Source of the DNA: a virus
IMG/VR virus record: IMGVR_UViG_3300011114_000277
Span: 1-30,475 of that record
DNA: 30,475 bases
Strand: one strand, 5' to 3'
Shown here: positions 5,401 through 30,098 of the stretch, one piece after another
Layout of the letters: each line of letters begins with the position of its first letter
Numbering within the stretch: position 1 is the stretch's first letter
Position numbers and translations under genes: made by a program
The notes under the pieces: model-generated
What the model saw: only the letters and a program-made list of their open reading frames with translations
Database searches by the model: none
Told to the model about the DNA's origin: nothing

Positions 5401-7775
5401 AATATGATCCACGTACATATAAATACGTAGCCATAGATAAGAGAGGTAGCTGGAAAGGTGTTGTTGAAGCCCTTAAAGCTGCAGCTGATGAAAATGGTAT
5501 ATCTTATGAAGAGATGGAAAAGTACGCGCACCAAGCGTTAATTGCTAAACGTCTACGTGGTCTAAAAGAAACTATGACCGAAGCAGAGAAAAGATATGTT
5601 ACTGAACTAGCTGCTGCTAAAACTCCTGCACAACGCGCTGCTGCAGAATCTAAATTTGAAACCTCCCGTAAAGTGATTCACTTATCTGAAGCACAAATAC
5701 AATCAGGTGAACAGCTGTTTAGAAAAGTTAAAGGAATGCAAAAAGTTGTTGATGAGTGGAATCTAGCTCGTGATAATATTATGGACTTTGCAGTTGACTC
5801 AGGTCTTTATACTCAATCAGAAGCTCAAGCCTTATTAGATGTTATGGACTATGTGCCATTTTATCGTGTAGAGCAATTAGAAAATAGAGCAGGTCCTAAA
5901 GAATTTACACGTGGACTTCTTGATGTGGCTTCAGACAAACGCTTTATGGGTAGTAAACAACCTGTTAATAATGTCTTTGATAATATGGAACGTTGGATTA
6001 GTTACGTAGTTAGAAAAGGTATTGGTAATCAATCAGCTAAAGATTTAAATGAAGCCGCTATGAAATACTTACCAGAAGGAGAAGTTAAAAAACTAAGTCC
6101 TGGTGAAAAGGTTCCTCATGGTCAACAAGGTAACGTTATTGGTATTTGGGATAATGGTAGTGTAGATAGATATGTCTATGCTGACCCATTATTTGTTCAC
6201 GCCTTTACAGGTATGGAACCTATTGTTATTCCTGCATTAAAAGGTGCAGCTAAGTTCACTAATATATTACGTCAGAACATTGTATTAAACCCATTGTTCT
6301 CTCTAGGTCAGTTATCACAAGATGCATTTGGTGCTATGTTTGTATCAGGTGTTAAACATCCGTTTGCATTACCTCTACAAGTAATAAAAGAGTTTATAGG
6401 TACACTTCGTGGTACAAGTGAAGCTCAAGCAGAGCTTAAACAATATGGTGCTGTAGGCGTTCGTGACTATTCATCAGCAGTTAGCCGTATAGATGCCGAG
6501 ATTGCTGCAGGATTAAAAGAACCTAAACTTATAGATAAGATTGCTAAACCTTTCCGTGCTTTATCTATGGCATCAGATAACGCTGTACGTCAAGCTATAT
6601 ATAATCAAACATTAAAAGAAACAGGTAATAAAGCTCTTGCTATTGAACGTGCTTTTGAAGTAATTAACTTTAGACGTGCTGGTGCTAGTAGCTCTGTTAA
6701 CTTCTTAAGACAAACAGTTCCATTCTTTGGTGCTTACTTACAAGCTATGAATGTAGCAGCTAAAACAATTGCAGGTAAAGGTATTGCTCCAATAGAAAAA
6801 GCTGAAGCTAGAAAAATATTAGCTTCTACATTTGTTAAAGTTATGATTGCAGGATTTGTTTATAATGCTTTAATTAGTGAAGATGAAGACTATAAGAAAC
6901 TTGATCCATCTATTAGAGATAAGAAATTACTTATTCCTGGTACAGGCGGTTTAAGCCTACCTGTTCGTAATGATATCTTTACTTTTGCAGCAAAGATTTT
7001 ACCAGAACATATCTATCAAATGACTATGGCTCAAGCTACTGAAGATGGCACTAAAGCTAAGAAAGCTCTATCCGCTGCATTAACAAATGCTCTACTAGGC
7101 CCTAACGTATTACCACAATTTGGTAAACCTATTATTGAGGTAATGACTAATCATAACTTCTTTACTGATAGAGCTATTGTAGGTCAAGGTGTAGAAGAAC
7201 TAGCTCCTGAAAAACAATACTCTGTTAATACATCAGAACTATCTAAAGTATTAGGTAGTGCATCAGGTACATCGCCTATGAAGTGGGATCATTTACTTAA
7301 GTCATACTTTGGATATACTGCAGGGTTAGGTTTAATGCTTACAGATCATGTAATGTCTGCAGGTTCTAATAAGTCATTACCTGATAAATCATTCCAAGAT
7401 ATGATAGCGGCTATTCCTGGTATGTCAGCATTTGTATCTAAAGAGTTTGGTACTCGTGAAAAGAGTGACTTCTATGAACTTCGTGATTTAGTAAATGAAG
7501 CAGTTAAAACTTCTAACTATATGAAAACTTATAGCACTCCTGAAGAACGTAAGAGTTATAAAGAAGAAAATGAAAAACTTCTACAAGTTAAATCACAAGT
7601 TAATAATATTAATAGACAGTTGACTAGTATTCGTAAGGAAGAAAGACTTACCTATGAAGCACCTGATTCTAGAATGTCCCCTATTCAAAAACAAGCTAAG
7701 ATTAAAGAATTAAGGCTTAGAGAAGAAAGAGTACTTAAAAATATAAGAGAGCTAAGAGTAAAAGCAGGACTATAA
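2472..7775 (+). CDS. Giant internal virion (ejection-type) protein with HEIGEH motif and LPD38-like region
   Basis: 1767 residues, the largest gene here and in the position of T7 gp16-like ejection proteins. The first 35 residues carry a Y-E-V-T-D-P-S-G-K-T-Y motif common at the start of phage virion proteins. Residues about 110-165 are Ala/Gly-rich and hydrophobic. Residues about 545-585 are a Pro/Glu linker. H740-E741-I-G-E744-H745 resembles the HEIGxH motif of polyvalent-protein metallopeptidases, although the His spacing is one residue longer than classic HEXXH. The segment around 1340-1490 (INFRRAG, then TVPFFGAYLQAMN and a hydrophobic stretch) matches what I know of the LPD38 domain. 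The last 75 residues are coiled coil. I see no lysozyme or transglycosylase motif. It overlaps the opposing gene by 6 bases. Ejection function is inferred. Confidence 0.8.
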   Translation: MADYEVTDPSGKTYIVTGPAGASKEQVIDVLQQKLAIQEQQYQENMSKTGLIPGLKSGARQFLAGTEEALGFKEAGAEQRKKAEEAYHEITPEDIQQAKEHGVLDTVGAYKSKYLTGPLGTIAGRYGAPVAASLAAPLVAPEALTGLIGGAAVRGLAGTAVDIGAEKSENIQSQVAAGQTPNQTKAWMAALPQAVLAGFGFPGTSEISKVLGPRLAAEAEAIAPKVLAGDVTLADAKAELTSKTAAYLQNMGVNTVTGSGLMIGTEDIRRAQAGQGLMSGQEMLDSVIQAGLLSPVFGLLHPSERPKAEAILKEASGKYQKIQNELADLRTLAADRELTRQENINKARLEEEAKQLAIDMERRIPLTKQDTLPFETTADEVKAEQLKGQKQKDLFTEAATTEEPLPSEKITTKTLTDLDIGRSAKLHNEITGLDIYEPEQNRIIRDKLQEYLNKYGVEQPKIDKIENYIKQLESIGGKNVPATKVEPAGDRARIPSVDVGQLEDTTGIKTSDTGGVDSTGNDARQYSEGDGQQSLALTEEKQAPASTEVIKSEAELAPEEKPTVEEAPPEEQAPPEEPIPLEQEANKVANELTALDRTHPLIETLRDPLSVTEKDVQQARAEVETLKAQREGKQPTTLAEEKATAAIEADPIVDESRVPGSKPTGQTKESIMYRLKGIFGSGIDSLTKRGVLNIVNSVDELPEHIRTVMGDNAIGAHSEGKAYLRADRISPENIRKVVLHEIGEHYCLEALVGERNYKDILQSVMAGKDKDAIIKAAWEHVSKVYPELKIGERQFLREIVAKIGEDAPSHPLWRRIINAVRNFLKVNKYKNMSGEDIQDIVMHSFKTAMKRDIKQLERKGVEFAKKEYEPNPEFKALYERAGGVYDKVEEPTLFQSLKDDPVNFVKEQAKVAPKFLDKFETMFFSSDASLQNAIRKGMESMGMSFDKMKEVLFRASTAQALHREAIAHQVLEKGGLQYDPRTYKYVAIDKRGSWKGVVEALKAAADENGISYEEMEKYAHQALIAKRLRGLKETMTEAEKRYVTELAAAKTPAQRAAAESKFETSRKVIHLSEAQIQSGEQLFRKVKGMQKVVDEWNLARDNIMDFAVDSGLYTQSEAQALLDVMDYVPFYRVEQLENRAGPKEFTRGLLDVASDKRFMGSKQPVNNVFDNMERWISYVVRKGIGNQSAKDLNEAAMKYLPEGEVKKLSPGEKVPHGQQGNVIGIWDNGSVDRYVYADPLFVHAFTGMEPIVIPALKGAAKFTNILRQNIVLNPLFSLGQLSQDAFGAMFVSGVKHPFALPLQVIKEFIGTLRGTSEAQAELKQYGAVGVRDYSSAVSRIDAEIAAGLKEPKLIDKIAKPFRALSMASDNAVRQAIYNQTLKETGNKALAIERAFEVINFRRAGASSSVNFLRQTVPFFGAYLQAMNVAAKTIAGKGIAPIEKAEARKILASTFVKVMIAGFVYNALISEDEDYKKLDPSIRDKKLLIPGTGGLSLPVRNDIFTFAAKILPEHIYQMTMAQATEDGTKAKKALSAALTNALLGPNVLPQFGKPIIEVMTNHNFFTDRAIVGQGVEELAPEKQYSVNTSELSKVLGSASGTSPMKWDHLLKSYFGYTAGLGLMLTDHVMSAGSNKSLPDKSFQDMIAAIPGMSAFVSKEFGTREKSDFYELRDLVNEAVKTSNYMKTYSTPEERKSYKEENEKLLQVKSQVNNINRQLTSIRKEERLTYEAPDSRMSPIQKQAKIKELRLREERVLKNIRELRVKAGL

Positions 7776-7964
7776 GCGCCATACTCTAACACCTTTAATA
7801 CCTTCTTCAACTACTATTTTATGAACGCACTCAAACTCAAGGCGTTTACTTTCTTTTTCAATAGCAATTACTGCTGCCTTTGTATCAATAGCAGGAATAA
7901 ATATTGAAGTACCTGGTTTAAATTCAGACCATAATATTTGGTAATCTACACCGTTAGTTAACAT
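7770..7964 (-). CDS. Small conserved-type phage protein, unknown function
   Basis: 64 residues, basic, with a compact pattern (DYQILWSEFKPGTSIFIP, then a Lys/Glu helix, then IKGVRVWRL) that reads as a folded alpha/beta domain. The ATG lies inside the end of the primase-helicase gene (11-base overlap), so translation is probably coupled to it. The SD is weak (TTGGAT). The stop overlaps the end of the giant virion gene by 6 bases on the other strand. A helper or DNA-binding role in replication is possible from context only; I do not recognise a named family. Confidence 0.65.
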   Translation of the reverse strand: MLTNGVDYQILWSEFKPGTSIFIPAIDTKAAVIAIEKESKRLEFECVHKIVVEEGIKGVRVWRL

Positions 7965-10803
7965 GTCGTGGTATATCCAATGGTAAGTTATTAAGTTTTA
8001 TTTCATCAAAGCTTGAGTTATCAATCCATAAACATCTTCTACCAGAACCACTAATGTCTAGCCCTTTATGTAGTAATTTAGAATCTCCTGATTTACGATG
8101 CAGAACCTTTTGCTCTTTTAATTTAGCAACAAAATCTTCATAGTCAACATTACCCATGCTCTTTAGATGTGTACGCATTATATCGCAGGGAATATAAATA
8201 GTGTTAGTATCTGGCTCAATTCTTACACGTAACTCATTGATTGGTTTAAGTAAAGGAGCTTCTTCTAATCCTGAACGCGCATCTATTTTACTATTAATTA
8301 CTAAAGTGTTTTTTAAGTTTTCATGTAAGAAAGAAGATAATGTTTCCATAGCATCAAAGTCACGTTCTTTAAGCTCTACTCTAGACTTATCTAGCTCAGT
8401 CCTAACAGCTTCTTGAACGCGCCCTATATCAATATTATGGATGCCTAGTTTCTGTGCAATCTTAGCACCTAAAAATACAGCAGCTAATGTAGCAGAATAC
8501 TTGCGTTCTTCTCCTGTAATACCCCAAGCTTTGTCTATCTTAATTTGTGTATCTTTTAGAGCTACCTTAACTGATTCTAAATTAGCTATTAACCATTGAG
8601 AATATATTTCACCTGCATGTCCATAATTACTGAATAGATGTTCAAAGTATTCATCTGCTTGTTCTTTAGTTAAGGTTCTATCTTTATCAATTCTTATTTG
8701 TAAGAAGCGTGCCATTTCACCTGAAGCTTTAGCATTCTCTGAAAACATTACAGTTCTAAAATCTGTATTAGAAGATACAACGCATATAAGATTAAATACA
8801 GTATCGTTAGAACGTTCTTTATTCTTACCACTACTATCCATACGATTCTTACCACGACCTGTAGACATAAACTTTAAAAATTCATGCAATTGGTCTGGTT
8901 TAACTTTTGTAAATTCATCTACGGCGGCGGGTAAGTTATTCATATAACCCATACGATTAATAACTGCATTACCTGTATCACCCCAAACTTGAATAAGATT
9001 AGCATTCATTTCAGGATTACCATACACACTAGTCATTGCTTGTAAAATTGTAGATTTACCTTGTCCTGTTTCAGGATTATATAAATTTAATACAGCTGAC
9101 TTTTCTTTTGATTTAAAGAAAGGCATGAGGAGTGAACCAAATGCACAGAAGAATCCAAAAGCACGTAATTCCATACCAGGTCTTTCATATGCAGATATAG
9201 CTTTCTTCCATAACTCGTATGAACCTTTCTTTTGTAATGCAGGGTTCACATCATTCAATGCTTCAGAGACAGGAACAAACTTAACACCAAAGGCACTAAT
9301 TTCTCTATTACCTATCACTATCTTATTATATGCGGAGTTCCAACCATATTGTTTATACATAGGTGTTGACGGTTTTTGTTTTTGTTGAGCGTCTACAACA
9401 GCCATGATGTAATCAATAACATTATCTAGTTTCTTACCATTTCTAACTATACCTTTAGCCACTAGAATTTTACGAGCTTCATCTCTTGTTAGTAATTGTG
9501 TTAGAGGAGCTATGAATTCTTGAACACCATCTTGTGGAAGATGTATTTTAAACCAAGCACAGAAACCAGCAGAGTCTTTATCGTTAAGGATTTCTACAAG
9601 ATAGAAGTCATAGTCATAGACCATCATGCCTTCTTCCTCTTCACCTTCTATGGTTTTATAAACCCCACCATTTTTACCTCTAAAATATGGATATGGATAA
9701 TCAGGTATTTGATATGTTAATACTTCACCTAGTTCTTCTGATTTAGCTTGTATAACATTATCTGCGCCTTTAGAACGTAGGATAACGCGACCTAATTCAA
9801 TAGGAGAAGTAATCTTACCTTTATGTTTACATCCTTGACATCCTTCAGGACGCAAGCCTTCAAATTGTTTACATGTATGTGGACCTGGTATGCCATTAGC
9901 TTTCATTTCTGTTCTAGCATAATCATAGTCTGGATGACGTTTAGATATGTTATGTATCGCTGCTTCTGCATCTTCACAATATGCTGCAATAGATAAACCT
10001 GAACGCCATAAAGGTTCTTCAATTTCAGATTGTTTTGTAGCTATATAAGTTATTTGTGCACAGCCATCATCTTTACGGCAGCGTTCAATAATCTTCATAA
10101 ATTTAGAGGAGTTATTACCTAGAATAGCTTTAGTAGCTTCGTCTAATGGACGTTTAGCTTTTGGCTTATCTGATATATGTATAGGTATAAGTCTAGCTAA
10201 TTCATCAAAAGGTGTAGGGATACCTTCATTTAAAATAATTACATCAACAGGTTTTTTAATATCTTTAAAGTTCTTTGTATTAGGAACTCGAAGAATACGT
10301 GCCATATCAGCAGTGCAAGCACCATCAGCTTTAAGTCCATGTTTAACACACAGAAACTTTAATCCTTCTGCAACGGGCTGCCATATAGCTTTATCTACAG
10401 GTTCACTAAAAGGCCAATAACAATGAACGCCTCGTCCTGAATCTACAATAGTAGGTTCTGGTAATTGTGTTTTATCTGTGAATTCTCTTAGTGCTACAAG
10501 GGCTTGGTCTTTAGTTTCGTAGTCTTTCCATTTGCGTTTCTTATCATCATAGCCACAGTCAATATCTAACCATAAGATACGTTGTTCTTTTGCATTTAAT
10601 TTTTTACGTTCTGTTGGCTCAATATAAGTTGAACATGCAAAGTACACATCTTGCTTATCTGCTAAAAATTTTTCTGCTACTTCTAATGCTTCATCAATGG
10701 TTTCTACAAACTTTGGCATCACCACATTTTGTGGATCTTTACCTAAAATACAATAGTATCCTTGCTCAGGCCATACTTGTTGTAAAAATTGTTTTGTTTG
10801 CAT
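7954..10803 (-). CDS. Primase-helicase fusion (AEP-like primase plus SF3/DUF927-like ATPase)
   Basis: 949 residues. Residues 1-210 resemble an archaeo-eukaryotic-type primase: LWLD80-I-D82 gives the metal-binding DxD, and S122-G-R-G-V-H127 resembles the sxH nucleotide-binding motif, followed by ARILRVPNTKNFK. A Cys/His cluster (H309, C311, C322, C325, H327) could bind zinc. The C-terminal ATPase has Walker A NPETGQGKST (576-585) and Walker B AAVDE (D629-E630), followed by a sensor-like VVSSN stretch, as in helicase domains of the DUF927/D5 type. It would prime and unwind DNA at the phage fork with the family A polymerase at 17402. The ATG is preceded by a modest GAGAGAA site, and a hairpin terminator lies just upstream, so its expression may be reduced relative to the operon. 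The exact primase subfamily is uncertain. Confidence 0.88.
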   Translation of the reverse strand: MQTKQFLQQVWPEQGYYCILGKDPQNVVMPKFVETIDEALEVAEKFLADKQDVYFACSTYIEPTERKKLNAKEQRILWLDIDCGYDDKKRKWKDYETKDQALVALREFTDKTQLPEPTIVDSGRGVHCYWPFSEPVDKAIWQPVAEGLKFLCVKHGLKADGACTADMARILRVPNTKNFKDIKKPVDVIILNEGIPTPFDELARLIPIHISDKPKAKRPLDEATKAILGNNSSKFMKIIERCRKDDGCAQITYIATKQSEIEEPLWRSGLSIAAYCEDAEAAIHNISKRHPDYDYARTEMKANGIPGPHTCKQFEGLRPEGCQGCKHKGKITSPIELGRVILRSKGADNVIQAKSEELGEVLTYQIPDYPYPYFRGKNGGVYKTIEGEEEEGMMVYDYDFYLVEILNDKDSAGFCAWFKIHLPQDGVQEFIAPLTQLLTRDEARKILVAKGIVRNGKKLDNVIDYIMAVVDAQQKQKPSTPMYKQYGWNSAYNKIVIGNREISAFGVKFVPVSEALNDVNPALQKKGSYELWKKAISAYERPGMELRAFGFFCAFGSLLMPFFKSKEKSAVLNLYNPETGQGKSTILQAMTSVYGNPEMNANLIQVWGDTGNAVINRMGYMNNLPAAVDEFTKVKPDQLHEFLKFMSTGRGKNRMDSSGKNKERSNDTVFNLICVVSSNTDFRTVMFSENAKASGEMARFLQIRIDKDRTLTKEQADEYFEHLFSNYGHAGEIYSQWLIANLESVKVALKDTQIKIDKAWGITGEERKYSATLAAVFLGAKIAQKLGIHNIDIGRVQEAVRTELDKSRVELKERDFDAMETLSSFLHENLKNTLVINSKIDARSGLEEAPLLKPINELRVRIEPDTNTIYIPCDIMRTHLKSMGNVDYEDFVAKLKEQKVLHRKSGDSKLLHKGLDISGSGRRCLWIDNSSFDEIKLNNLPLDIPRHVN

Positions 10804-10839
10804 TATTCTCTCGAAATATGTTTTATTACTAAAATAGGT

Positions 10840-10859
10840 GGGGCAATATTATTTGCCCC
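10840..10859 (-). terminator. Hairpin terminator or attenuator between HTH gene and primase
   Basis: A perfect 7-bp stem, GGGGCAA/TTGCCCC, with a 6-base loop lies in the 62-base gap. On the - strand it is followed by CCTATTTTAG, a short U-rich run. This is a plausible intrinsic terminator or attenuator for leftward transcription, letting only part of the messages reach the primase. The U-run is weak, so leakiness is likely. Confidence 0.65.
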
Positions 10860-10865
10860 GAGGTA

Positions 10866-11096
10866 TTACTTTTTGCTTATACGTTCTGACAGCGCTTTAA
10901 TTACTTCATCAAAGCGGCGTGATGGTTTTGCTCTACCCGAAAACCAATCATACACCGTTTGTCTTGAAACGTTAAGCTCTTTCGCTACTTGACTTGCGGG
11001 GTACTTTAATGATATGCATAGCTTGCCTAAAAGAGTCCCTGCAGACTCTTTAGCCTTAGCATTAGCTTCCATTATGATCTGAGAATAACCACGCAT
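10866..11096 (-). CDS. Small helix-turn-helix regulator (Cro/CI-like)
   Basis: 76 residues from the ATG at 11096. An upstream TTG at 11108 and an internal ATG at 11072 are alternatives. The helix-turn-helix is clear: SQVAKELNVSRQTVYDWFSG (residues 35-54), with the Q-T-V-Y-D-W-F recognition helix typical of lambda-repressor-like domains. There is no oligomerisation or peptidase domain, so it resembles Cro rather than a full CI. It sits directly after the putative ssDNA-binding gene and before a terminator. Its likely targets are dyads such as the one shared by the three promoters in this window; that pairing is inference. It may also act on host promoters. Confidence 0.8.
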   Translation of the reverse strand: MRGYSQIIMEANAKAKESAGTLLGKLCISLKYPASQVAKELNVSRQTVYDWFSGRAKPSRRFDEVIKALSERISKK

Positions 11097-15577: not shown

Positions 15578-15748
15578 TTAGTCTTCTTTCTTTTGGACTT
15601 CGCCTGTTGATTTATTAAGTTCATATTCTGCTAAAGGTTCTTTCTTTTTCTTACCAAAGATTAAGTCCCAATTCTTTTCGAATTGTTCATTGTTTGGTTT
15701 AGACTGTAACCAATCACCTGTTACATCATTACGTGCAGTCTTTTTCAT
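15578..15748 (-). CDS. Small conserved-type phage protein (RND-TGD motif)
   Basis: 56 residues from the ATG at 15748, which overlaps the preceding stop as TAATG. A longer frame from 15760 exists but lies inside the upstream gene. The sequence T-A-R-N-D-V-T-G-D-W-L-Q-S-K-P, then a NWDLIFGKKKK stretch, recurs in small phage proteins of unknown function. It is highly charged with a basic patch, so nucleic-acid or partner binding is possible. It is two bases from the nuclease start, in the same operon. Confidence 0.65.
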   Translation of the reverse strand: MKKTARNDVTGDWLQSKPNNEQFEKNWDLIFGKKKKEPLAEYELNKSTGEVQKKED

Positions 15749-16308
15749 TACCATACCCATGATACGAAACTATCTCGTATCCCTTTCGTCACTGGATTAA
15801 CTTTATGCGGATACAAAAAGTTAGACGGGAATATTAATATGTCCCCCTGTTTTAGTTTAATTTCCATGTCGTCAAACATGATAAATTCCCCACCTTCATA
15901 GTCATCATTAAGAAAGCCTACGATAGACAATGTAGGTATGCCTTTCATTTTACCATCAAACATATCATGAATATGATCGCAGTGTTTAGCCATGGTCTTA
16001 CCTTCTTTATAGCGATTAAATCTTATATGGGTAAAACCTTGCCATCCATTAAAGTAGTCATTCTTAAAGTCAGTTAAGATGTATTGACTGATAGCTTCCC
16101 ATACTTTTTGAGTAAGCTTATCGCGTGTAGCTATGTTATCCCACGATACATCAAGTTCTTGGTCACCACTTTGAGTAACATACTTACCATCAGCATTATA
16201 AAATACATGTTGTTTCCATGTAGCTTCATCTATTTCTTTTCTTATCTGGTCACATAACTCTTTATCAAGCCAAGGATATACTTTAATATAGTCTGTTAAC
16301 TTATCCAT
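15748..16308 (-). CDS. 2-oxoglutarate/Fe(II) dioxygenase, prolyl-hydroxylase-like
   Basis: 186 residues. The iron-binding triad is visible: H109-C-D111 and H168, with R178 (GIRDSFVSW) placed to bind 2-oxoglutarate. GFTHIRFNRYKEG and GEFIMF complete the prolyl 4-hydroxylase/PKHD-type double-stranded beta-helix. It would hydroxylate a substrate using O2 and 2-oxoglutarate. The substrate is unknown: protein, nucleobase or lipid are all possible. The SD is GGAG, 7 bases before the ATG. It is the last of three adjacent dioxygenase-like genes between polA and the Cas4-like nuclease. Confidence 0.82.
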   Translation of the reverse strand: MDKLTDYIKVYPWLDKELCDQIRKEIDEATWKQHVFYNADGKYVTQSGDQELDVSWDNIATRDKLTQKVWEAISQYILTDFKNDYFNGWQGFTHIRFNRYKEGKTMAKHCDHIHDMFDGKMKGIPTLSIVGFLNDDYEGGEFIMFDDMEIKLKQGDILIFPSNFLYPHKVNPVTKGIRDSFVSWVW

Positions 16309-16933
16309 TTTTAAACTCCGTCAATGACTTGTTATCGCCGAGTGTTCCTTTGATAAACGAATTAAATGCAAGACTTACTCGTACATCATCGGCTATTACA
16401 TCTTCTACATGATGCGTTAAGCTTGAAGGAAACATCACTATGCCACCCGTCTTAACATTGAACCACCACGAGTCAGAGTTGTATATGTCAAAGGTATCAC
16501 TAACTAATTGTAATTGTTTGTAACCTGCTCTATGAAAGGTAATCTTGTCTTTAGTGGAATCTGTAGATAGGTATAGCACACCTGATATAAAACTATTTGG
16601 ATGTTCGTGCTTATGATGGAATTCACCCTTCTTAGTCCAATTAAGCCATGACTGTGTAACAAAAGCTTCAGCAGGGAACTTAGGTTTGTATACTCGCTTA
16701 ACATATTCATTTAGCTGTTCAGTAACAAACTTATTCAAGTCTGCCATCTCAGGTTCATTAAGTATATAGTTGTTGTTAGATGTTACGTTACCTACATTAC
16801 GATTGGTAGATGTTGCATGGCTTTCTATGTATGCAAGTTCTTTTTTAGTAAAGTCTCTGCCAATGCTATTAAACATAACAGGGGTAGGAAATAGTAATTC
16901 AAAGTTTGGTTCATTCATAATTAGTTTGGACAT
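16301..16933 (-). CDS. 2-oxoglutarate/Fe(II) dioxygenase, TIGR02466-like
   Basis: 210 residues (a start at 16918 is also possible; neither has a clear SD). H107-x-H109-x-H111-P-N-S-F-I-S-G-V-L-Y-L matches the H-x-H-P-N-S-x-x-S-G-V-x-Y pattern of the TIGR02466 family of putative 2OG-Fe(II) oxygenases. The second half gives FPSSLTHHVE (H174/H175) and R185-V-S-L-A-F-N for iron and 2-oxoglutarate. The family is frequent in aquatic phages, but its substrate is not known to me. It overlaps both neighbours (8 and 23 bases), and the three dioxygenases probably are made together. Confidence 0.8.
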   Translation of the reverse strand: MSKLIMNEPNFELLFPTPVMFNSIGRDFTKKELAYIESHATSTNRNVGNVTSNNNYILNEPEMADLNKFVTEQLNEYVKRVYKPKFPAEAFVTQSWLNWTKKGEFHHKHEHPNSFISGVLYLSTDSTKDKITFHRAGYKQLQLVSDTFDIYNSDSWWFNVKTGGIVMFPSSLTHHVEDVIADDVRVSLAFNSFIKGTLGDNKSLTEFKNG

Positions 16934-20591: not shown

Positions 20592-20900
20592 TCATTTCCA
20601 TTTTCCCATTTCATCTAAAAAGTTTTGAAAGGCTACTAAATTATTTTCATTAACTACCATAGCTATGCCTTCATTATCTTGTATGTGTTGCAGGTTTTTT
20701 TCTTGTAATACGCTAGGTTTATTTGTGCCTGCTTTACATTCAATTCCCATGAATGCGCCTTTATAACATGCCACAATATCTGGTACTCCAATACTCATAT
20801 AACCACTTGCTACGGGATAGAAGTGATATGCACCCCTATCCTTTAGCATCTTAACAACTTGTTGCTTGACCCATTTTTCTAATACTTTTTTTTCTTTCAT
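20592..20900 (-). CDS. VRR-NUC domain nuclease
   Basis: 102 residues, the usual size for a phage VRR-NUC protein. G-V-P-D41-I-V-A, then G-I-E54-C-K56 and a helix with Q66 give the PD-(D/E)XK core. Preceded by a basic helix (V-L-E-K-W-V-K-Q-Q-V-V-K). It may resolve DNA junctions or process ends, as FAN1-type VRR-NUC domains do. Start overlaps the preceding stop as ATGA. The downstream gene begins 42 bases after its end. Confidence 0.9.
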   Translation of the reverse strand: MKEKKVLEKWVKQQVVKMLKDRGAYHFYPVASGYMSIGVPDIVACYKGAFMGIECKAGTNKPSVLQEKNLQHIQDNEGIAMVVNENNLVAFQNFLDEMGKWK

Positions 20901-21205
20901 TTAGGCATTTCCATAAAACGTTTCATAGCATTGGCTTTCTTGTAATTAAACTCTGTAGTCTTCTGATTTATCAATCTTAAATCTGTCTTCTTTGTAAACG
21001 CTACATTAATGTTATGCATCGCTTGTCTATAACCTAGATATATTTTATCTGATTCATCTTCGGGAATAATATAGAATTGTCCATCACGAATACCTACATC
21101 TTCTACATACTTACCTACATCTACTAAATCAAGAATAGCCATTTTTTCTTTAGTTTCTTTTGATACTATAGATGACGTTGCATCTATGGCATGGAATATT
21201 TTCAT
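20897..21205 (-). CDS. Hypothetical protein
   Basis: 102 residues with a good SD (GGAGAACAT-ATG). It reads as a folded alpha/beta protein (M-K-I-F-H-A-I-D-A-T, then YIIPEDESDKIYLGYRQA) with a basic C-terminal helix. It starts as ATGA in the DUF3150-like gene and ends as ATGA in the VRR-NUC gene, so it is made with both. No family recognised. Confidence 0.7.
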   Translation of the reverse strand: MKIFHAIDATSSIVSKETKEKMAILDLVDVGKYVEDVGIRDGQFYIIPEDESDKIYLGYRQAMHNINVAFTKKTDLRLINQKTTEFNYKKANAMKRFMEMPK

Positions 21206-22044
21206 ATGTTCTCCATAATTTGATTAACACGTGCAAGTATCTCGTCACGTGCGCCCTTACTCTGACGTAAATCATCAGCTGATACACCTACTAAAGTTCT
21301 TTCTAAAGCTTTACGTGCTTCTTCTAGTTTCGGGTCGTTTGTTACATTAAGCCTTGTTAATAGATTTGTCAACTCTAATGCATTATCTACTAAACTATTT
21401 CTAAATATTTTCTTATCATCACCACTTAACCTATCAATCATATGCTCTAAGGTTGTATGTAGCCTTGACCATGCATCAGACATTGCAGCTTCAACACGTC
21501 CTTCATAAGCCTGTTGATATTCTTTTTGCAATTGCTCTTTCATCTGCTCACCAATGTCAATACGGAAGTCATTTACTTCTGGCACAGGCATAATAGTATA
21601 ACGTAAGTCAAACTTAGATGCAATCTTATGCGCTTCGGGATATTCCCCTCGGTCGAACAGTTTGCCGAGTTTAAAAGCCATGACCGTAATGATGTTCGGA
21701 TACTCTGTAATGAACTTATTCACACGTTCTTTAAACTCAGTTTCATATTCGCTAAGTCTTTGTTTATAATCAAAGAAGTTACTCATAGGTAATAACCTTG
21801 TGCCTGTGTCTGACCATGGCAACGTCTGTCTTCCATGCCAATCACGGATTTCTCCAGAGAGTTTCGTGATAGCTTCGAGTTGGTCTGACCCTGCAAGGAT
21901 ATGTTTATTATAGTTACCTGCCTTGATGGTTGTGTTCTTATTAATGTCTATCTCTTTCGAGACTTGCTTATCTAATTTTCTAGCAGTCCATACTGATATA
22001 TTTAAATCAATTAAGACTGCACTACTCGCTATGCTGATACCCAT
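21202..22044 (-). CDS. DUF3150-like protein, partner of the MoxR/VWA pair
   Basis: 280 residues; SD GGGAGAAACAGC-ATG. Residues 9-70 (A-V-L-I-D-L-N-I-S-V-W-T-A-R-K-L, then K-A-G-N-Y-N-K-H-I-L-A-G) resemble the start of DUF3150 proteins, which in bacteria and integrative elements are encoded beside CobS-like ATPases and CobT-like VWA proteins. The rest is mostly helical (YETEFKERVNKFITEYPNI, REALR-type helices). The MoxR gene (25066) and VWA gene (23631) are within 4 kb, so I infer one complex. It overlaps the preceding gene by 16 bases. Confidence 0.65.
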   Translation of the reverse strand: MGISIASSAVLIDLNISVWTARKLDKQVSKEIDINKNTTIKAGNYNKHILAGSDQLEAITKLSGEIRDWHGRQTLPWSDTGTRLLPMSNFFDYKQRLSEYETEFKERVNKFITEYPNIITVMAFKLGKLFDRGEYPEAHKIASKFDLRYTIMPVPEVNDFRIDIGEQMKEQLQKEYQQAYEGRVEAAMSDAWSRLHTTLEHMIDRLSGDDKKIFRNSLVDNALELTNLLTRLNVTNDPKLEEARKALERTLVGVSADDLRQSKGARDEILARVNQIMENI

Positions 22045-22652
22045 GCTGTTTCTCCCTCATCATTAGTTATTGAATTTAAATCATTTGCTACTATACTTTC
22101 CCATACTGCTTCATCACTTGTCAGTGAATCATACTCGTCACTCAACTTGCTATACATCATACTACAAAGACTATCCACATCTTCATCTAAGTCAGACTCT
22201 AATCTTTCTATTTCTTTGTCTAACTCTGCATCCCATATATCTTTCAATGGATGGTCTTCACCATGTATCTGCCCAAAGCTTTCAGCTTCCATTTCTATTT
22301 CACTCCTATGGTTGTTACGCCATTGAGTTTCCCACGAACATTTCACATACCCACCATCGTCAATGAGTTTGTATAACATAGGATATTTTTTTTCTGCTAC
22401 ATATTTTTTAAAGTCTTGGTTTCTAATAGAGCCACCAAACGCAAAGCCATCACCTTGCGACCAAAAGCCAGACCAAGTCATATCACGTGAACGAACACTA
22501 TTATTTTTACCACTCCACGTGATTCCACGTTCAGCTAGATGTTCTTCAAACCAATCGTAGATATGTTCAGCCCATTCATCGTAGTCAACATTCATGGTGC
22601 GATGTTCCTCTATGAGTTCTTGTTTCATCTGTTCTGCACTAGGTTGATTCAT
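22029..22652 (-). CDS. Phage protein with FWSQGDG motif
   Basis: 207 residues. R-D-M-T-W-S-G-F-W-S-Q-G-D-G-F-A-F-G-G-S matches the S-G-F-W-S-Q-G-D-G signature found in many uncharacterised phage and plasmid proteins. It is preceded by a helical E-W-A-E-H-I-Y-D-W-F-E-E-H segment and followed by a very acidic coil (ERLESDLDEDVDSL). The acidic, DNA-mimic-like composition could suit an inhibitor of a host nucleic-acid enzyme, but no activity is established. AAGGGG lies just upstream of the ATG. Confidence 0.7.
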   Translation of the reverse strand: MNQPSAEQMKQELIEEHRTMNVDYDEWAEHIYDWFEEHLAERGITWSGKNNSVRSRDMTWSGFWSQGDGFAFGGSIRNQDFKKYVAEKKYPMLYKLIDDGGYVKCSWETQWRNNHRSEIEMEAESFGQIHGEDHPLKDIWDAELDKEIERLESDLDEDVDSLCSMMYSKLSDEYDSLTSDEAVWESIVANDLNSITNDEGETAWVSA

Positions 22653-22654
22653 GA

Positions 22655-23185
22655 TTACCCCTTAAATTCCATATCAAAGTATTGAAGCTTGCGAGTTAAT
22701 ACATTTTCTAAATAGTCATTAGCCTCTGTAGATAACTCATGCTTGTATGTTGCCATTGAACTTATTTGTTTCTTAACTGACTCATCTATTAAATCACCAT
22801 ACATATAAATTTGTCCTATGGTATGTTTACCTTCAATAGCTTCCTTTGTATGTTTAAGTCTATCAGCATACCACCACCCATTATTAGATTCGGGTGTTAG
22901 TAGTGCTACTGTAATAGCCCTATGCATAGCTTCAAAGATAGGGTGTTCATGGGGTATGTGATGCCATGAAATCCAATCCTCTCTTGTTTTAAAGTATGGC
23001 ACTTTCAAATAACTAATCAGACCTTGTGCTACATGAGACGTAGCTGAATTAGTAGAAGGCACGTTTAGATTTTTAACATACTTAGCAATATTCTTTAACT
23101 GTCTATCGCTAAACTTACTCATGTCAATAGCTACCTTAACTCCTCTTGATACATTTAGTAAACTTTGTGGGACGTTGATACTCAT
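22655..23185 (-). CDS. Hypothetical protein downstream of hairpin repeat A
   Basis: 176 residues; SD GAGGAG, 8 bases before ATG. Mostly helical, with an aromatic W-I-S-W-H-H-I-P-H-E-H-P-I-F-E-A-M-H-R stretch of His and acidic residues (73-91) that could bind metal. Its SD is directly preceded by the 30-base dyad at 23207, which lies inside the end of the upstream gene. No family recognised. Confidence 0.7.
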   Translation of the reverse strand: MSINVPQSLLNVSRGVKVAIDMSKFSDRQLKNIAKYVKNLNVPSTNSATSHVAQGLISYLKVPYFKTREDWISWHHIPHEHPIFEAMHRAITVALLTPESNNGWWYADRLKHTKEAIEGKHTIGQIYMYGDLIDESVKKQISSMATYKHELSTEANDYLENVLTRKLQYFDMEFKG

Positions 23186-23631
23186 TTTTGTTTCTCCTCA
23201 TGTTGTGAACTTTCTCCCTGTGTAGGGATTTTGTTCGTTCTTGGTAATTGATTAACTATCTCACTAATGGTGTGAGCTTCTATTGGTATTTCACTTGCCA
23301 TAGGTTCATTGTCTTGGTCGCCTTGATATTCTATTACTTCGACATCATCATACTCTTCACCAATACGAACAAACTTAGCAGCTATACCTTCCATTGTTTC
23401 TTCTTCAATAGAGGTAAGCATATCCATATGCCATTTAACATCGTCAAATGATTCATACCATTTAACATGGTTAGCTTCATATATTATGAACAAGTTATCT
23501 GTATCTACTTCTTCACATTCTTCTAAAGCTTTTATAAAACATGGGTGTAGTTTGTTTAATGCTACAAACTTACGCTTAGTATCTAAGTCTTTAAACTCTA
23601 TGGCATAAGTAACATCACTTCGATAACCCAT
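23182..23631 (-). CDS. GYRSD-type phage protein
   Basis: 149 residues, starting TAATG after the VWA gene. M-G-Y-R-S-D-V-T-Y-A-I, a V-K-W-Y-E-S-F motif and F-V-R-I-G-E-E-Y-D-D-V-E match a family of unassigned phage proteins with a small alpha/beta domain. The last 20 residues are coded by the hairpin repeat A and its flank (around P-R-T-N-K-I-P-T-Q-G-E-S-S), which may therefore be a recent extension. It ends as ATGA with the gene at 22655. Confidence 0.75.
   Translation of the reverse strand: MGYRSDVTYAIEFKDLDTKRKFVALNKLHPCFIKALEECEEVDTDNLFIIYEANHVKWYESFDDVKWHMDMLTSIEEETMEGIAAKFVRIGEEYDDVEVIEYQGDQDNEPMASEIPIEAHTISEIVNQLPRTNKIPTQGESSQHEEKQK
23207..23236 (-). repeat. 30-bp dyad repeat, copy A
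   Basis: On the - strand: GAAC-AAAA-TCCCT-ACAC-AGGGA-GAAA-GTTC. Two stems (4 and 5 bp) separated by 4-base internal loops. It lies inside the end of the 23182 gene and ends about 8 bases before the GAGGAG of the 22655 gene, with which it shares a CAACATGAGGAG flank. See copies at 26132, 26986 and 30033. RNA hairpin or protein operator. Confidence 0.85.
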
Positions 23632-24788
23632 TATCTTTCTCCTATGTATACAGACTTACCATGTGGTGATGTAACATGTGCATAGGTAATTGCCCATAGC
23701 GTTGGATAATCCCATGCGCCACCCCAATCATCTTCAACACCACCATCAGTTAATATAATGATAGCTTCGGGGTGTATCTGTTTCTCTTTGATATACTCAT
23801 TGAGACAACCCACCCTAGTGCCACCTCCCCCTGCAGGTTTAGTCGTAGTCTTCAAGGCATTGTAATCCCCTTGATGATACGTCTCATGGTTCGCTACCTC
23901 AGCGTCCCAATAGATAAGTTCAATACTTGATGGTGATACATCATCACATATGGCAACGACTTCTGTTAAGAACTCATTGAGTTCCCTGTCACCAATAGAG
24001 CCAGACGTATCTATACCTATCACTACCTTACCTACTGATTCACCAATCATGCTAGGCATATAGATATCTTGTCCTATGAATCGTTTGTGTGGACGTTTCC
24101 ATGATGTCTTATCTTTGTTGCGACACGTGGCATTAACAAACTCACGCAACTGCTCGCGCCAATCTACCTTAGGTTCAAGTAACTCATTGATACTTCTATT
24201 CTTATTACCTGCCATCTTGCCACGTATGATTTCACCTTGACGTAGGGCTTGGTCTATTTGTTTAGCAGTTTCCTTAACCTCATCATCAGATAGTCCTTCT
24301 GCACCTTCCCAATCATGAGAATCATGTCCACTACCACCATCACCATTACCATCTCCCTTTTGTTTAAGTAAATCAAAGACTTGCTTTGTTGTCATGTTTG
24401 CATACTGCTTATCAAACAATGCACTCTTTGGTATTGTTGTTATCGCACCATGTATATCTGATTCATGGATAGTATTGTTGACAACATAGTCAGCTGCGAT
24501 ATTCGATAGCTGAGGATTTTCTTTCCACAACTTCTTCCACAAAAACATATGTTGAAATACTTTATGCAACGCTTCATGTAACACGACAAAGTTTAACTCC
24601 CTATCATCTAGGGTATCTATAAAGTCTGTGTTATATATAACATCACGACCATTGGTGCAAGCCGTAGGTATATCTTTAGAATAGATAACCTTGCCCACCG
24701 ATAACACACCAGAGAACATACAGAACTCCTTGCTTCTCATGATAGCTATGTGGGACTTCGTGACTCTTTGTTCACTCGTTAGTGCCAT
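23631..24788 (-). CDS. Metallopeptidase-like plus VWA domain protein (DUF2201-type)
   Basis: 385 residues from the ATG at 24788 (GGGAG upstream; an ATG 18 bases earlier is possible). H71-E-A-L-H75 is a full HEXXH, followed at a proper distance by N-I-A-A-D-Y-V-V-N-N, as in the N-terminal metallopeptidase domain of DUF2201 proteins. Residues about 145-162 are a Gly/Asp linker. Then a VWA domain: D260-T-S262-G-S264 is the MIDAS metal site and I-I-L-T-D-G the later Asp strand. VWA proteins of this type work with MoxR AAA+ ATPases to assemble, activate or degrade other proteins. Target unknown. Confidence 0.88.
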   Translation of the reverse strand: MALTSEQRVTKSHIAIMRSKEFCMFSGVLSVGKVIYSKDIPTACTNGRDVIYNTDFIDTLDDRELNFVVLHEALHKVFQHMFLWKKLWKENPQLSNIAADYVVNNTIHESDIHGAITTIPKSALFDKQYANMTTKQVFDLLKQKGDGNGDGGSGHDSHDWEGAEGLSDDEVKETAKQIDQALRQGEIIRGKMAGNKNRSINELLEPKVDWREQLREFVNATCRNKDKTSWKRPHKRFIGQDIYMPSMIGESVGKVVIGIDTSGSIGDRELNEFLTEVVAICDDVSPSSIELIYWDAEVANHETYHQGDYNALKTTTKPAGGGGTRVGCLNEYIKEKQIHPEAIIILTDGGVEDDWGGAWDYPTLWAITYAHVTSPHGKSVYIGER

Positions 24789-25056
24789 CTTCTTTCTCCC
24801 AATCATAAATGTAATCTAAATATTCAACTATATAATCTTCATCAGACATCTTTCGATTGTCATGCCATTCACAAACTAAGTCCCATAAGAAGTCACCATT
24901 ATCTCTAGCATCTTCAAAGTCATGGTTCTTGACTGCTTCTTTAACTAATTCTATTGGCATGGTTGTCTTAATTTTAAATTTAGCAAACTCTTCTAGACGT
25001 TGTCGTTCTATTATTTGCTTTTGATTTTCTGCGTATACTTCAGCATCAAAACTCAT
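24772..25056 (-). CDS. Hypothetical acidic protein
   Basis: 94 residues, with AGGAG before ATG. Helical, acidic and rich in aromatic residues (F-L-W-D-L-V-C-E-W-H-D-N-R-K, then VEYLDYIYDWEKED). It lies between the ATPase (9 bases away) and VWA genes, overlapping the latter by 17 bases. It may be an adaptor for that pair, by position only. Confidence 0.7.
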   Translation of the reverse strand: MSFDAEVYAENQKQIIERQRLEEFAKFKIKTTMPIELVKEAVKNHDFEDARDNGDFLWDLVCEWHDNRKMSDEDYIVEYLDYIYDWEKEDGTNE

Positions 25057-25065
25057 AACTATCTC

Positions 25066-26112
25066 CTAGAAATATTGGTTATTATTAACTGCCCAATCAA
25101 CGAACGACTTGTTAGTCGCAGCTAAAGACTTCTTACTAGATGCCATGATGTTGACTGCGAACAACGCTTGCAACTCCATAGGTAATCGTTGTAAGTATGT
25201 AAGCCACGCATCAAAGTGTTCCTCTGTGATACTCATGAGTTCACGCATCACTAGAATAACCTTAGCTGCAGGGTCGGTTGGTAGCATAGCTTCCATAGGT
25301 TTGTTGTAGATAGATTCCTTAGTCGGTAGTCCATCAGCTAGACTAAAGTATGCTGACATATCTCTCGCAGCTGATTCACCAATAGTTCCTGCGAGTGCAG
25401 TCAAGGTAGTATCATCACCTAAAACTTGTCTAGACTTAACGATAGGTGATGCCTTTGCTAACGAACGAGGAGATACAAACGCTTCCTGTTGCTTGCGAGG
25501 ATTGTATATATACATATTTTCTTTCTGTGATTCATCTGTATAACACGCAAGAGCATGTGGGAATTGTTTAACCCAAGCCACAATCTCTGGTGCTATCTCA
25601 TTATCAATCGCCCAATTTATCCACTCGTCATCATTAGGGTTCCTAACTGTGACGGCAGTCAAACGATTCTTGGCATGCGCTTTCATGGTATCGCCTACAC
25701 CATCTGTTATTAGATTCCCTGTGGAATACACGATAGAGTCGGGGTGAAACTTAACTGCACCCAATCTTCTCTCTAACATAACAGGCAATAACATATTCTT
25801 AACAGGCTCACTTGCCTTGGTGATTTCGTCTAGCATAATAATCACAGGCTTGTTGTCATGTATGGCAAACCTTTCATTCGGATAGAATGTTGTGGTCTTG
25901 CTCTCATGGTTCATGGCAGGCATAGCTAAGTCACCTAAGTCTAAGTCTGCACAATCTATATACACAGGAGTATGGTCGGGAAACCTACTTGCCAATGCTT
26001 TAAGAATGGAAGACTTACCAATGCCAGGTTGTCCACGTAAGTGAACAGTTACTTCTTTACCTACTGTTGCAATTAACTCTTCTGCTTGTTTCAAATTAAT
26101 TTCTTGTTGCAT
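25066..26112 (-). CDS. MoxR-type AAA+ ATPase (CobS-like)
   Basis: 348 residues. Walker A is G27-Q-P-G-I-G-K33-S; Walker B is I-I-M-L-D95-E96-I-T; sensor 1 is S-T-G-N133; R150 is in the place of an arginine finger (A-K-N-R-L-T-A-V). This is the MoxR/CobS class, which forms rings and acts with VWA proteins as chaperone or metal-insertion machines. The VWA gene (23631) and the DUF3150-like gene (21202) lie downstream in the same direction. The SD AAGGAG is 8 bases before ATG, and hairpin repeat B fills most of the 51-base gap ahead of it. Confidence 0.92.
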   Translation of the reverse strand: MQQEINLKQAEELIATVGKEVTVHLRGQPGIGKSSILKALASRFPDHTPVYIDCADLDLGDLAMPAMNHESKTTTFYPNERFAIHDNKPVIIMLDEITKASEPVKNMLLPVMLERRLGAVKFHPDSIVYSTGNLITDGVGDTMKAHAKNRLTAVTVRNPNDDEWINWAIDNEIAPEIVAWVKQFPHALACYTDESQKENMYIYNPRKQQEAFVSPRSLAKASPIVKSRQVLGDDTTLTALAGTIGESAARDMSAYFSLADGLPTKESIYNKPMEAMLPTDPAAKVILVMRELMSITEEHFDAWLTYLQRLPMELQALFAVNIMASSKKSLAATNKSFVDWAVNNNQYF

Positions 26113-26131: not shown

Positions 26132-26161
26132 GAACTTTCTCCCTGTGTAGGGATATTGTTC
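26132..26161 (-). repeat. 30-bp dyad repeat, copy B
   Basis: On the - strand: GAAC-AATA-TCCCT-ACAC-AGGGA-GAAA-GTTC. It starts 2 bases after the stop of the 26164 gene and ends about 7 bases before the AAGGAG of moxR. With the SD it makes up almost the whole intergenic region, so its role must bear on the junction of these two genes: processing, attenuation or translational control. Confidence 0.9.
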
Positions 26162-26163
26162 GG

Positions 26164-26964
26164 TTAATAAACTACATCTAATACTTCGGGGTGATTGAAC
26201 TTTATCTCAACGTCCATATACTGAACCATATCTTTATAATTCTTAACATATGATTTATTTAATTGCCAATCCATACGTGACATATGATTAGCTAATAACA
26301 TATAGAGATTCCACCAACTCTTTTCTTCACGTGCCATGTTTAGTATCTCACTACGATTATTTCTTATCGTAAATTCTGGTGGCTTTTCTGGCACTTCACC
26401 ATTCGTTAAGCCATGCATAGTCTTAAGGTAATCAAAGAATTTTTGATATGGTTTCCTTACTTCGTTCATGCGCTTACGATTGATTTTATATTTCTTAACT
26501 TCTATATGCACACTCTCATCTACTGCCTTGTGAGTATAGTAGTTAAACTTATATCGGTGCATGCCTGTTTGAATACCATACCCATTGAAGAACTTACTTA
26601 TGTTAGGCTCGCTAGGTGGATTGAACCCACGTGGCACGTAGCTATCACGACTATAGTGCTTGATGTCTGCCATGATTACTTTTTCTAAAAACTTACGTGT
26701 GCTTATGGTGTCCCAATTACCTAGCGTTATCTCGTAGTGTGTTGGATAATAATAAATAAGACCTGTTGAATGTAGCCCTGCAACATAGACTTCAACACCA
26801 TCTATCATCTCTTGCATGAGCCACTTGTTTTCCATCTTCCTATCACCTAGTCTGCGATAGGCTTTATGTTCACCTCTGACCATTGTCGTTGAATGAAAAC
26901 GATTGCGCGCTTCATCATATGACATAAGTCTAGGTAAGTCTGACGTGCTGATATGAAATGCCAT
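26164..26964 (-). CDS. Hypothetical protein, first gene after promoter P2
   Basis: 266 residues. GAGGAG precedes the ATG by 8 bases. It has a beta-rich N-terminal half (Y-V-A-G-L-H-S-T-G-L-I-Y-Y-Y-P-T-H) and a basic helical C-terminal half (K-K-Y-K-I-N-R-K-R-M-N-E-V-R-K). No catalytic motif seen. It heads the MoxR/VWA transcription unit, about 105 bases downstream of P2, with hairpin repeat C in its leader. It may belong to the same functional set. Confidence 0.7.
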   Translation of the reverse strand: MAFHISTSDLPRLMSYDEARNRFHSTTMVRGEHKAYRRLGDRKMENKWLMQEMIDGVEVYVAGLHSTGLIYYYPTHYEITLGNWDTISTRKFLEKVIMADIKHYSRDSYVPRGFNPPSEPNISKFFNGYGIQTGMHRYKFNYYTHKAVDESVHIEVKKYKINRKRMNEVRKPYQKFFDYLKTMHGLTNGEVPEKPPEFTIRNNRSEILNMAREEKSWWNLYMLLANHMSRMDWQLNKSYVKNYKDMVQYMDVEIKFNHPEVLDVVY

Positions 26965-26985: not shown

Positions 26986-27015
26986 GAACTAAATCCCTAC
27001 GTAGGGAGAAAGTTC
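26986..27015 (-). repeat. 30-bp dyad repeat, copy C (core inverted)
   Basis: On the - strand: GAAC-TTTC-TCCCT-ACGT-AGGGA-TTTA-GTTC. The 14-base centre TCCCTACGTAGGGA is a perfect palindrome. It lies in the leader between P2 and the 26164 gene, ending just ahead of ATAACATGAGGAG. The outer flanks (CCGAAC and ATAACATGAGGAG) match copies A and B, but the inner spacers match the opposite strand of A and B. Confidence 0.9.
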
Positions 27016-27067: not shown

Positions 27068-27096
27068 ATTATAGCATAACTAATTGACATTGTCAA
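27068..27096 (-). promoter_or_regulatory. Consensus sigma70 promoter P2
   Basis: On the - strand, TTGACA (27096-27091), a 17-base spacer and TATAAT (27073-27068): a full consensus. The -35 sits in TTGACAATGTCAA, a 13-base near-palindrome, with further ATAAC/GTTAT symmetry outside, so a repressor operator overlapping the -35 is likely. It faces the 26164-moxR-VWA block. Confidence 0.9.
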
Positions 27097-28308: not shown

Positions 28309-28519
28309 TATGATTCTTACGAACCTTAGCCATCTTATGCATATACTTTGCATACTCTTTATCTCCCATATAGTAAGCGAGCAAAGTTCTGAACGCTTGG
28401 TTTATCTCATAAAAGTTTGGCTCATCGGGAAAGTTACGGTTTACTGTATACCCACTCTTCAACGCCTCTACCAATACTTCATCTGCTTGGTCATCATTTA
28501 ATTCAATTAAGACTTGCAT
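28271..28519 (-). CDS. Hypothetical protein
   Basis: 82 residues with a strong SD (AAGGAGAG). Opens M-Q-V-L-I-E-L-N-D-D-Q-A-D-E-V-L-V-E-A-L-K-S-G-Y, an alpha/beta start, and ends in a basic helix (K-M-A-K-V-R-K-N-H-N-A-K-R). Overlaps the hydrolase stop by 17 bases. No family recognised. Confidence 0.7.
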   Translation of the reverse strand: MQVLIELNDDQADEVLVEALKSGYTVNRNFPDEPNFYEINQAFRTLLAYYMGDKEYAKYMHKMAKVRKNHNAKRLADAHSGL

Positions 28520-28889
28520 AATTACTCTCTCCTTGTTTATAAAATATTAAGTTCGCCCATTTTACAACGGGTTTTAAATTATACCATGACTTCGGTTTCT
28601 TAATGCTCGTGTCATGGAAGTTCGTTGCACCATAGCTATAATCTACCTCTAGCCTATGCAATACACGATACGCTATATCAAAGTATTGTTGCTTAATTAC
28701 CGAAGGTGGTTCTACATACCCATACCAACTGAATTGATATGGTCGTTTCATCTCGGTGCATACATTCTTTTTATTAAAGTCGGCTCGCCTCATCAATACG
28801 TAGCCCACAGCAATCTGCCCTTGTCGGGGTTCATGCGCTGACTCCATGTATATGGTCGTGGCGAGACAAAGTAAAGCTTGGTCAATCAT
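28503..28889 (-). CDS. SleB-like cell-wall hydrolase (Hydrolase_2), probable endolysin
   Basis: 128 residues; excellent SD (AAAGGAGGTCAGT-ATG). L-A-T-T-I-Y-M-E16-S-A-H-E-P-R-Q-G-Q-I-A-V-G-Y-V and Q52-F-S-W, then G-A-T-N-F-H92-D, match the Hydrolase_2/SleB family, where the first Glu is the probable catalytic acid cleaving peptidoglycan glycan strands. It lacks a signal peptide and a wall-binding domain, so it would need a holin-type exit. Small membrane and lipoprotein genes lie within 1 kb downstream. The likely role is host lysis, though an entry role is not excluded. Confidence 0.88.
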   Translation of the reverse strand: MIDQALLCLATTIYMESAHEPRQGQIAVGYVLMRRADFNKKNVCTEMKRPYQFSWYGYVEPPSVIKQQYFDIAYRVLHRLEVDYSYGATNFHDTSIKKPKSWYNLKPVVKWANLIFYKQGESNYASLN

Positions 28890-29959: not shown

Positions 29960-30098
29960 TTTGCATCTCCTTTTGTTGACATAAGTCAAAAAACATTAAC
30001 TGCCAAACTGCTTTACAAAGTAAATAATTACTGAACTTTATCCCTGTATCGGGAGATTGTTCTCGGTTCATATTGCCTGCGATTATCTTTATATCCAT
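29949..30098 (-). CDS. Small protein (49 residues), first gene after promoter P1
   Basis: Read in the gap: ATG at 30098 with a strong SD (AAGGAGAG, 4-5 bases away), 49 residues, stop at 29949. It runs M-D-I-K-I-I-A-G-N-M-N-R-E-Q-S-P-D-T-G-I, then C-K-A-V-W-Q-L-M-F-F-D-L-C. Codons 11-23 fall in hairpin repeat D. It overlaps the next start by 11 bases. It could be a real small early protein, or a leader peptide over the hairpin. Confidence 0.5.
   Translation of the reverse strand: MDIKIIAGNMNREQSPDTGIKFSNYLLCKAVWQLMFFDLCQQKEMQIEN
30033..30062 (-). repeat. 30-bp dyad repeat, copy D
   Basis: On the - strand: GAAC-AATC-TCCCG-ATAC-AGGGA-TAAA-GTTC, with one G-T wobble-type mismatch in the inner stem. 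The flanks differ from copies A-C and no SD follows directly, so it is the most diverged copy. It lies about 100 bases downstream of P1. Confidence 0.75.

Follow-up and report, generated by a model that had tools for sequence, protein, structure and literature searches.

The best-studied bacterial couple of an AAA+ ATPase and a VWA-domain protein is, in our assessment, NorQ-NorD. In this couple a VWA finger sits in the pore of a hexamer and twists the linker of the partner (PMC9976466, PMC13036017), and ATPase-VWA couplings have also been proposed for midasin and for RavA-ViaA (PMC7159879). Here, we analyse a window of 30,475 bases, the whole of the IMG/VR virus record IMGVR_UViG_3300011114_000277 and probably a fragment, which carries on its minus strand the genes of a MoxR-type AAA+ ATPase, of a metallopeptidase-VWA protein and of a DUF3150-like protein (the trio; Table 1). 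We propose that these three genes probably encode a single MoxR/VWA remodelling machine, similar to RavA and NorQ, in which the DUF3150-like protein acts as adaptor, and which is expressed early or mid infection and directed at a host or DNA-metabolism complex. No close relative of the window was found at the DNA level in an annotated phage collection.

Phages already described carry part of this set. In N4, gp24 (an AAA+ ATPase) and gp25 belong to the same ATPase and metallopeptidase-VWA families and lie near replication genes, and both appear in the core-gene table of the N4-like phages (Schitoviridae) (PMC7650795). The N4-like records differ in the third gene, DUF3150 being found in none of the six searched (N4, Pa2, pVa5, RG-2014, Presley and At2). 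The jumbo-phage pair of Iyer et al. (2021) shows, in the passages of that paper found, the same N-terminal metallopeptidase-VWA fusion adjoining a MoxR ATPase; these passages propose a role in virion assembly and do not mention DUF3150 (PMC7824862). No paper naming DUF3150 was found in the literature searched.

Plasmids carry all three families. On betaproteobacterial plasmids (Simplicispira, Cupriavidus, Variovorax and Paraburkholderia) they are clustered on one strand, but the order is ATPase-DUF3150-VWA and two of the VWA members in our alignment are devoid of HExxH; neither the 266-aa gene, nor the Hjc-like gene, nor the start-associated palindromes of the window were detected at these loci. 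In pCAR1, ORF100-103 bring the same three kinds of gene next to one another, for an AAA ATPase, for DUF3150 and for a VWA protein, in a region shared with ssb, recT and lambda-exonuclease genes. This plasmid is conjugative, and its ORF100-103 are conserved in R478, Rts1, SXT and R391 (PMC2642839). As plasmids were known to carry the trio, and N4-type phages a part of it, the set is related in an ordinary way to machines already described, and constitutes a new lineage within that kind. An earlier note on this DNA, made from the sequence alone, had suggested that it may be a dedicated phage machine, which the same trio on plasmids leaves without support.

The three proteins

The ATPase matches phrog_1297 ('ATPase') with an expectation value (E) of 1.5e-57 and exceeds the cut-off of Pfam AAA_5. 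Residues G30, G32, K33, D95, N133, R150 and R216, which make up Walker A, Walker B, the sensor-1 asparagine and two arginines, are unchanged in 30 relatives from phages and plasmids. Among solved structures, its profile is closest to midasin (7.8e-42) and also reaches NorQ (1.7e-7). The earlier note had described a CobS-like AAA+ ring ATPase: the location and the AAA+/MoxR family are right, but the CobS label seems loose, as the PHROG labelled porphyrin biosynthesis is reached at E 0.066 only and the solved structures point to midasin and NorQ.

The second protein matches DUF2201_N (2.8e-31, 109.6 bits for a cut-off of 23.2) and DUF2201 (2.8e-15, 57 bits for a cut-off of 26.4). Its metal ion-dependent adhesion site (MIDAS), DxSxS...T...D, is unchanged in 31 aligned relatives, in which HExxH and the further histidine are nearly invariant; in a wider set the MIDAS is present in 121 of 121 proteins and HExxH in 118. 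The HExxH motif and the intact MIDAS given for this protein in the earlier note are correct, and the protein lies within the block named there. The PHROG of this family, phrog_1314, which includes N4 gp25, is labelled 'HNH endonuclease', as are many RefSeq phage records; judged by the motifs, this label is apparently a misannotation.

For the third protein, the similarity to DUF3150 is upheld by several routes, yet its own match to PF11348 (E 1.9e-4, 21.3 bits) lies under the gathering cut-off of 24.9. At the level of the family, 11 of the 17 phage members match PF11348 at E ≤0.01 (best 3.7e-8), and a plasmid member recruited by the same iterated profile (L138) clears the cut-off at 35.3 bits. 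The predicted model (predicted local distance difference test, pLDDT, 78; predicted template modelling score, pTM, 0.50) finds as its best match among viral models a 'DUF3150 domain-containing protein' (E 4e-17), the one so named among the top five, whose template modelling scores normalised to the query are 0.70-0.80. Solved structures returned common helical bundles only, which shows no relationship and is no proof of a new fold.

Linkage and proposed function of the set

The counts that follow concern IMG/VR relatives; the contigs come from related viruses and do not represent independent events. Among loci with enough flank (5 kb upstream for the DUF3150 loci), both partners, ATPase and VWA, are present at all 59 DUF3150 loci, and 48 of the 49 VWA loci hold both other genes, the exception being L117. 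In all, 88 contigs follow the order ATPase-VWA-DUF3150 and 2 the order DUF3150-ATPase-VWA, and MinM2 shows the ATPase-DUF3150-VWA order of the betaproteobacterial plasmids. That the three genes remain together in spite of these changes of order speaks well for a functional link, and agrees with the claim of the earlier note that the three genes form one set akin to bacterial and mobile-element loci. The additional genes which that note saw mixed in are indeed there, as variable cargo found in 57, 21, 10 and 10 of the 90 trio loci. The Cloacimonadota genome bin G001 holds the trio twice (contigs C144 and C148), and in one of these copies the VWA reading frame is split.

How would such a set work? 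Because the ATPase profile is nearest to midasin and reaches NorQ, we read it as a remodeller of the NorQ-NorD type. The ATPase is predicted to form a hexameric ring, in or on the pore of which the VWA domain would dock through its MIDAS face; this docking would let the energy of ATP hydrolysis act as a force on the substrate held there. The N-terminal zincin-like domain may hold the target and, in most members, possibly cut it. The DUF3150-like protein, given its linkage to the pair and its mainly helical model, would most likely be the adaptor choosing the target. The operon would be transcribed in the early or middle phase of infection, by way of a host-type promoter and together with replication and recombination genes, and such expression would make a host or DNA-metabolism complex a more likely target than a virion part only. 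Moreover, since DUF3150 goes with the ATPase-VWA pair, and since the set is found on elements that have no virion, the target may be common to phages and plasmids.

A role as virion assembly chaperone, in which the trio would mature or process a structural protein, seems unlikely to us. It has been proposed for the same pair of proteins in jumbo phages, in the passages cited above (PMC7824862), and in the archaeal Acidianus two-tailed virus, where a role of such proteins in the tail is shown in part, the MoxR protein p618 binds the VWA protein p892 as well as virion proteins (PMC4124505). However, plasmids carry the same trio and make no virion, so that a virion-only role fits poorly; the genes lie, here and in N4, among replication and not structural genes; and a strong host-type promoter stands ahead of the operon. 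The virion part which the earlier note had named as one of two possible targets is therefore possible but disfavoured.

Decidedly improbable is a conflict system, that is, a weapon against host or rivals, or a counter-defence, comparable to the bacterial MoxR-vWA ternary systems (PMC7159879), although the trio does travel on mobile elements. PADLOC and NCBIfam searches gave no meaningful match, PADLOC returning nothing significant for the ATPase or the DUF3150-like protein and a marginal match for the VWA protein; the bpMoxR domain scores 16 bits for a cut-off of 27; and the near-universal presence of the trio within its lineage is unlike the patchy distribution of conflict genes. That the trio supplies iron to a metalloenzyme of the phage or of its host, for instance the two 2-oxoglutarate (2OG)-Fe(II) oxygenases at 15748-16933, whose genes run in the same operon direction, we consider very improbable: NorQ-NorD does put iron into nitric oxide reductase, but no need of a loader is known for such oxygenases, and in N4 and on plasmids the pair or trio occurs with no such oxygenase annotated alongside.

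We thus keep the remodelling machine as our preferred reading, against which several observations nevertheless weigh. About 500 annotated phages match the ATPase or the VWA protein and only 4 match DUF3150; when 12 pair-bearing phage records were searched whole, DUF3150 was present in MinM2 only, and a 25-member DUF3150 profile found nothing at E ≤1 in the 11 others, N4-like and otherwise. Conversely, DUF3150 stands without the VWA gene in phage Tunturi_3 and on a Manganitrophus plasmid, where another AAA+ ATPase is encoded close by. As DUF3150 is missing from most pair-bearing phages and is found without the VWA protein, it is not a strict subunit, and the trio of the earlier note holds within the lineage but only in part outside it. 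Furthermore, the VWA protein of pCAR1 differs, being a NorD-like protein of 604 aa with distant similarity only, HExxH is absent from 3 of the 121 VWA proteins, two of them plasmid members, and of 29 relatives only 6 show the strong promoter before the operon. A search for a T7-type RNA polymerase gave no match in the relatives, but the control matched nowhere either, so that absence is not shown.

Palindromes ahead of genes

The most unusual and surprising part of the locus is not the trio itself but the palindromes. The hairpin repeats mentioned in the earlier note ahead of several genes correspond to a 45-nt repeat, in four copies in the window and in none in shuffled sequence, which holds a palindrome of about 30 bp. 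Relatives have palindromes of like design with different arms, the arm sequence being particular to each phage. We found 66 copies with a recognised arm pair in 13 sequences (0 in shuffled sequence), of which 48 end at most 60 nt, and mostly 15-25 nt, from a start bearing a Shine-Dalgarno (SD) sequence; for random positions the figure is 340 of 3900. These counts are descriptive and do not amount to a test, since some of the sequences are related or overlapping and the arm pairs were picked after inspection.

A second scan, in which symmetry alone was fixed and the arm sequence left free, placed a palindrome before the ATPase at 28 of 78 loci (random, 8/830), with 19 different sequences among them and a distance to the start that is nearly always 20-24 nt, and before the 176-aa gene at 26 of 59 (random, 6/590). 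Such palindromes were rare or absent ahead of the VWA (1/95), DUF3150 (5/113), small (0/100) and nuclease (0/36) genes. Are these sites read as DNA or as RNA? The RNA does fold. In the paired columns, however, mismatches comprise 2 G-U pairs and 21 others, with three more G-T pairs in L124 in a column outside this sum. Wobble pairs are thus not favoured, which led us to reject an RNA hairpin as the sole function; sites in double-stranded DNA are at least as likely.

The nearest parallel is given by the start-associated sequences (SAS) and extended SAS (ESAS) of Cluster K mycobacteriophages, which likewise recur in front of genes; the ESAS form inverted repeats in which some positions are particular to a genome (PMC3203893), and the Cluster O sites are 17-bp palindromes (PMC4351075). 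The start-associated placement, seen in the 48 of 66 copies above, holds here too. The 13-bp asymmetric SAS GGGATAGGAGCCC was not seen in the aligned copies, where the palindrome is followed by a plain SD, though no dedicated pattern search was made. Unlike in Clusters K and O, orthologous sites carry different arms in different phages here, and in two nearly identical genomes the arms have switched symmetrically.

This switch was found by comparing two phages, L020/L093 and L023/G004, that share about 95% identity. At one orthologous position, the flanks of which hardly differ, TGACATTGTATCA-AAAA-TGATACTTTGTC in one is replaced by TGACATTTGCGTA-AAAA-TACGCAATAGTC in the other, both arms having changed. 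A second site (L020 4280-4440) shows the same kind of switch, and a third is unchanged. The compared stretch holds one strongly diverged gene, for a protein of about 230 aa that is 43% identical between the two phages, along with other small genes that are diverged or missing. The family of this protein counts 30 open reading frames, among which several duplicate a single contig; its members are often encoded immediately next to palindromes, and it has no clear relative in Pfam, PHROGs or solved structures. This fast-diverging protein is a candidate for the cognate regulator of the palindromes. The changes of arms between phages suggest a control system so far undescribed, and we tentatively put forward, as a possibility rather than an expectation, that a phage-encoded factor of fast-diversifying specificity, the hypervariable 230-aa protein, has as its sites the palindromes that precede the ATPase gene, the 176-aa gene and the genes upstream, in a specificity-switching, heteroimmunity-like circuit over the remodelling operon. 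In this view each phage would have arms of its own, and the two arms would be rewritten jointly and at many sites at once.

The -35 box of the promoter ahead of the operon sits inside a small palindrome of its own (TTGACAATGTCAA), as does that at L020 4280-4440, and this could be a second operator.

Surroundings of the operon and outlook

Around the trio every gene is encoded on the minus strand, in a leftward run that extends from about 30 kb to 8 kb and includes genes for a DNA polymerase, a helicase, an exonuclease and a primase-helicase; the Hjc-like nuclease and replication genes come after the trio. The conserved 266-aa protein belongs to no known family, and its confident model (pLDDT 92) has no match above Z 4.0 among solved structures, which shows no relationship and is no proof of a new fold. 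Besides the two oxygenase genes, which are adjacent, the window holds a cell-wall hydrolase-like gene (28503-28889; Pfam Hydrolase_2, 1.1e-9) amid small early genes and, at 2472-7775 on the strand opposite to the replication genes, the gene of a very large protein of 1767 aa with a zincin-like HEIGEH motif.

Table 1. Position of the features discussed, in the window and in related sequences
Feature	Sequence	Position	Strand	Remarks
MoxR-type AAA+ ATPase, 348 aa	window	25066..26112	-	phrog_1297, AAA_5, invariant motifs
Metallopeptidase-VWA protein (DUF2201_N + DUF2201), 391 aa, or 385 aa from internal ATG	window	23631..24806	-	HExxHxxxxH and full MIDAS
DUF3150-like third component, 280 aa, mainly helical	window	21202..22044	-	weak own match, family-level profile, viral structural matches
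Small variable gene between ATPase and VWA, 94 aa	window	24772..25056	-	10/90 trio loci
Variable gene, 149 aa	window	23182..23631	-	21/90 trio loci
Variable gene, 176 aa	window	22655..23185	-	57/90 trio loci; palindrome often upstream
Variable gene, 207 aa	window	22029..22652	-	phrog_5162; 10/90 trio loci
Conserved upstream gene, 266 aa	window	26164..26964	-	46/56 loci with enough flank
Conserved small gene downstream of DUF3150, 102 aa	window	20897..21205	-	62/63 loci with enough flank
Hjc/VRR-Nuc-like nuclease, 102 aa	window	20592..20900	-	Pfam Hjc 4e-6, above cut-off; 63/63 loci with enough flank
Sigma-70-type promoter TTGACA-17-TATAAT	window	27068..27096	-	12/12 match, extended -10; ahead of operon
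Palindrome before ATPase	window	26132..26161	-	GAAC-N4-TCCCT-N4-AGGGA-N4-GTTC (core of the repeat, minus strand)
Palindrome before 176-aa gene	window	23207..23236	-	within 3' end of 149-aa gene
Palindrome before 266-aa gene	window	26986..27015	-	
Fourth palindrome copy	window	30033..30062	-	imperfect
Switched site, symmetric	L020; L023	12110-12270; 12120-12280		
230-aa family member	L116	2403-3080		palindromes at 2383-2412, 3086-3115
230-aa family member	L097	3110-3817		palindromes at 2997-3026, 3818-3847
230-aa family members	L093; G004 (L151); L113; L089	2055-2744; 6397-7077; 4369-5100; 1596-2297		
DUF3150 without VWA partner	L138, Manganitrophus plasmid	7854-10876		DUF1257 and DUF2997 genes too
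DUF3150 without VWA partner	L129, phage Tunturi_3	8108-12762		

In conclusion, a class of targets shared by phages and plasmids would narrow the search for what the trio acts upon. The two phages that are nearly the same but for switched arms and one gene that has diverged strongly among them constitute a natural experiment on a putative regulator-site pair, which is for this reason directly testable.

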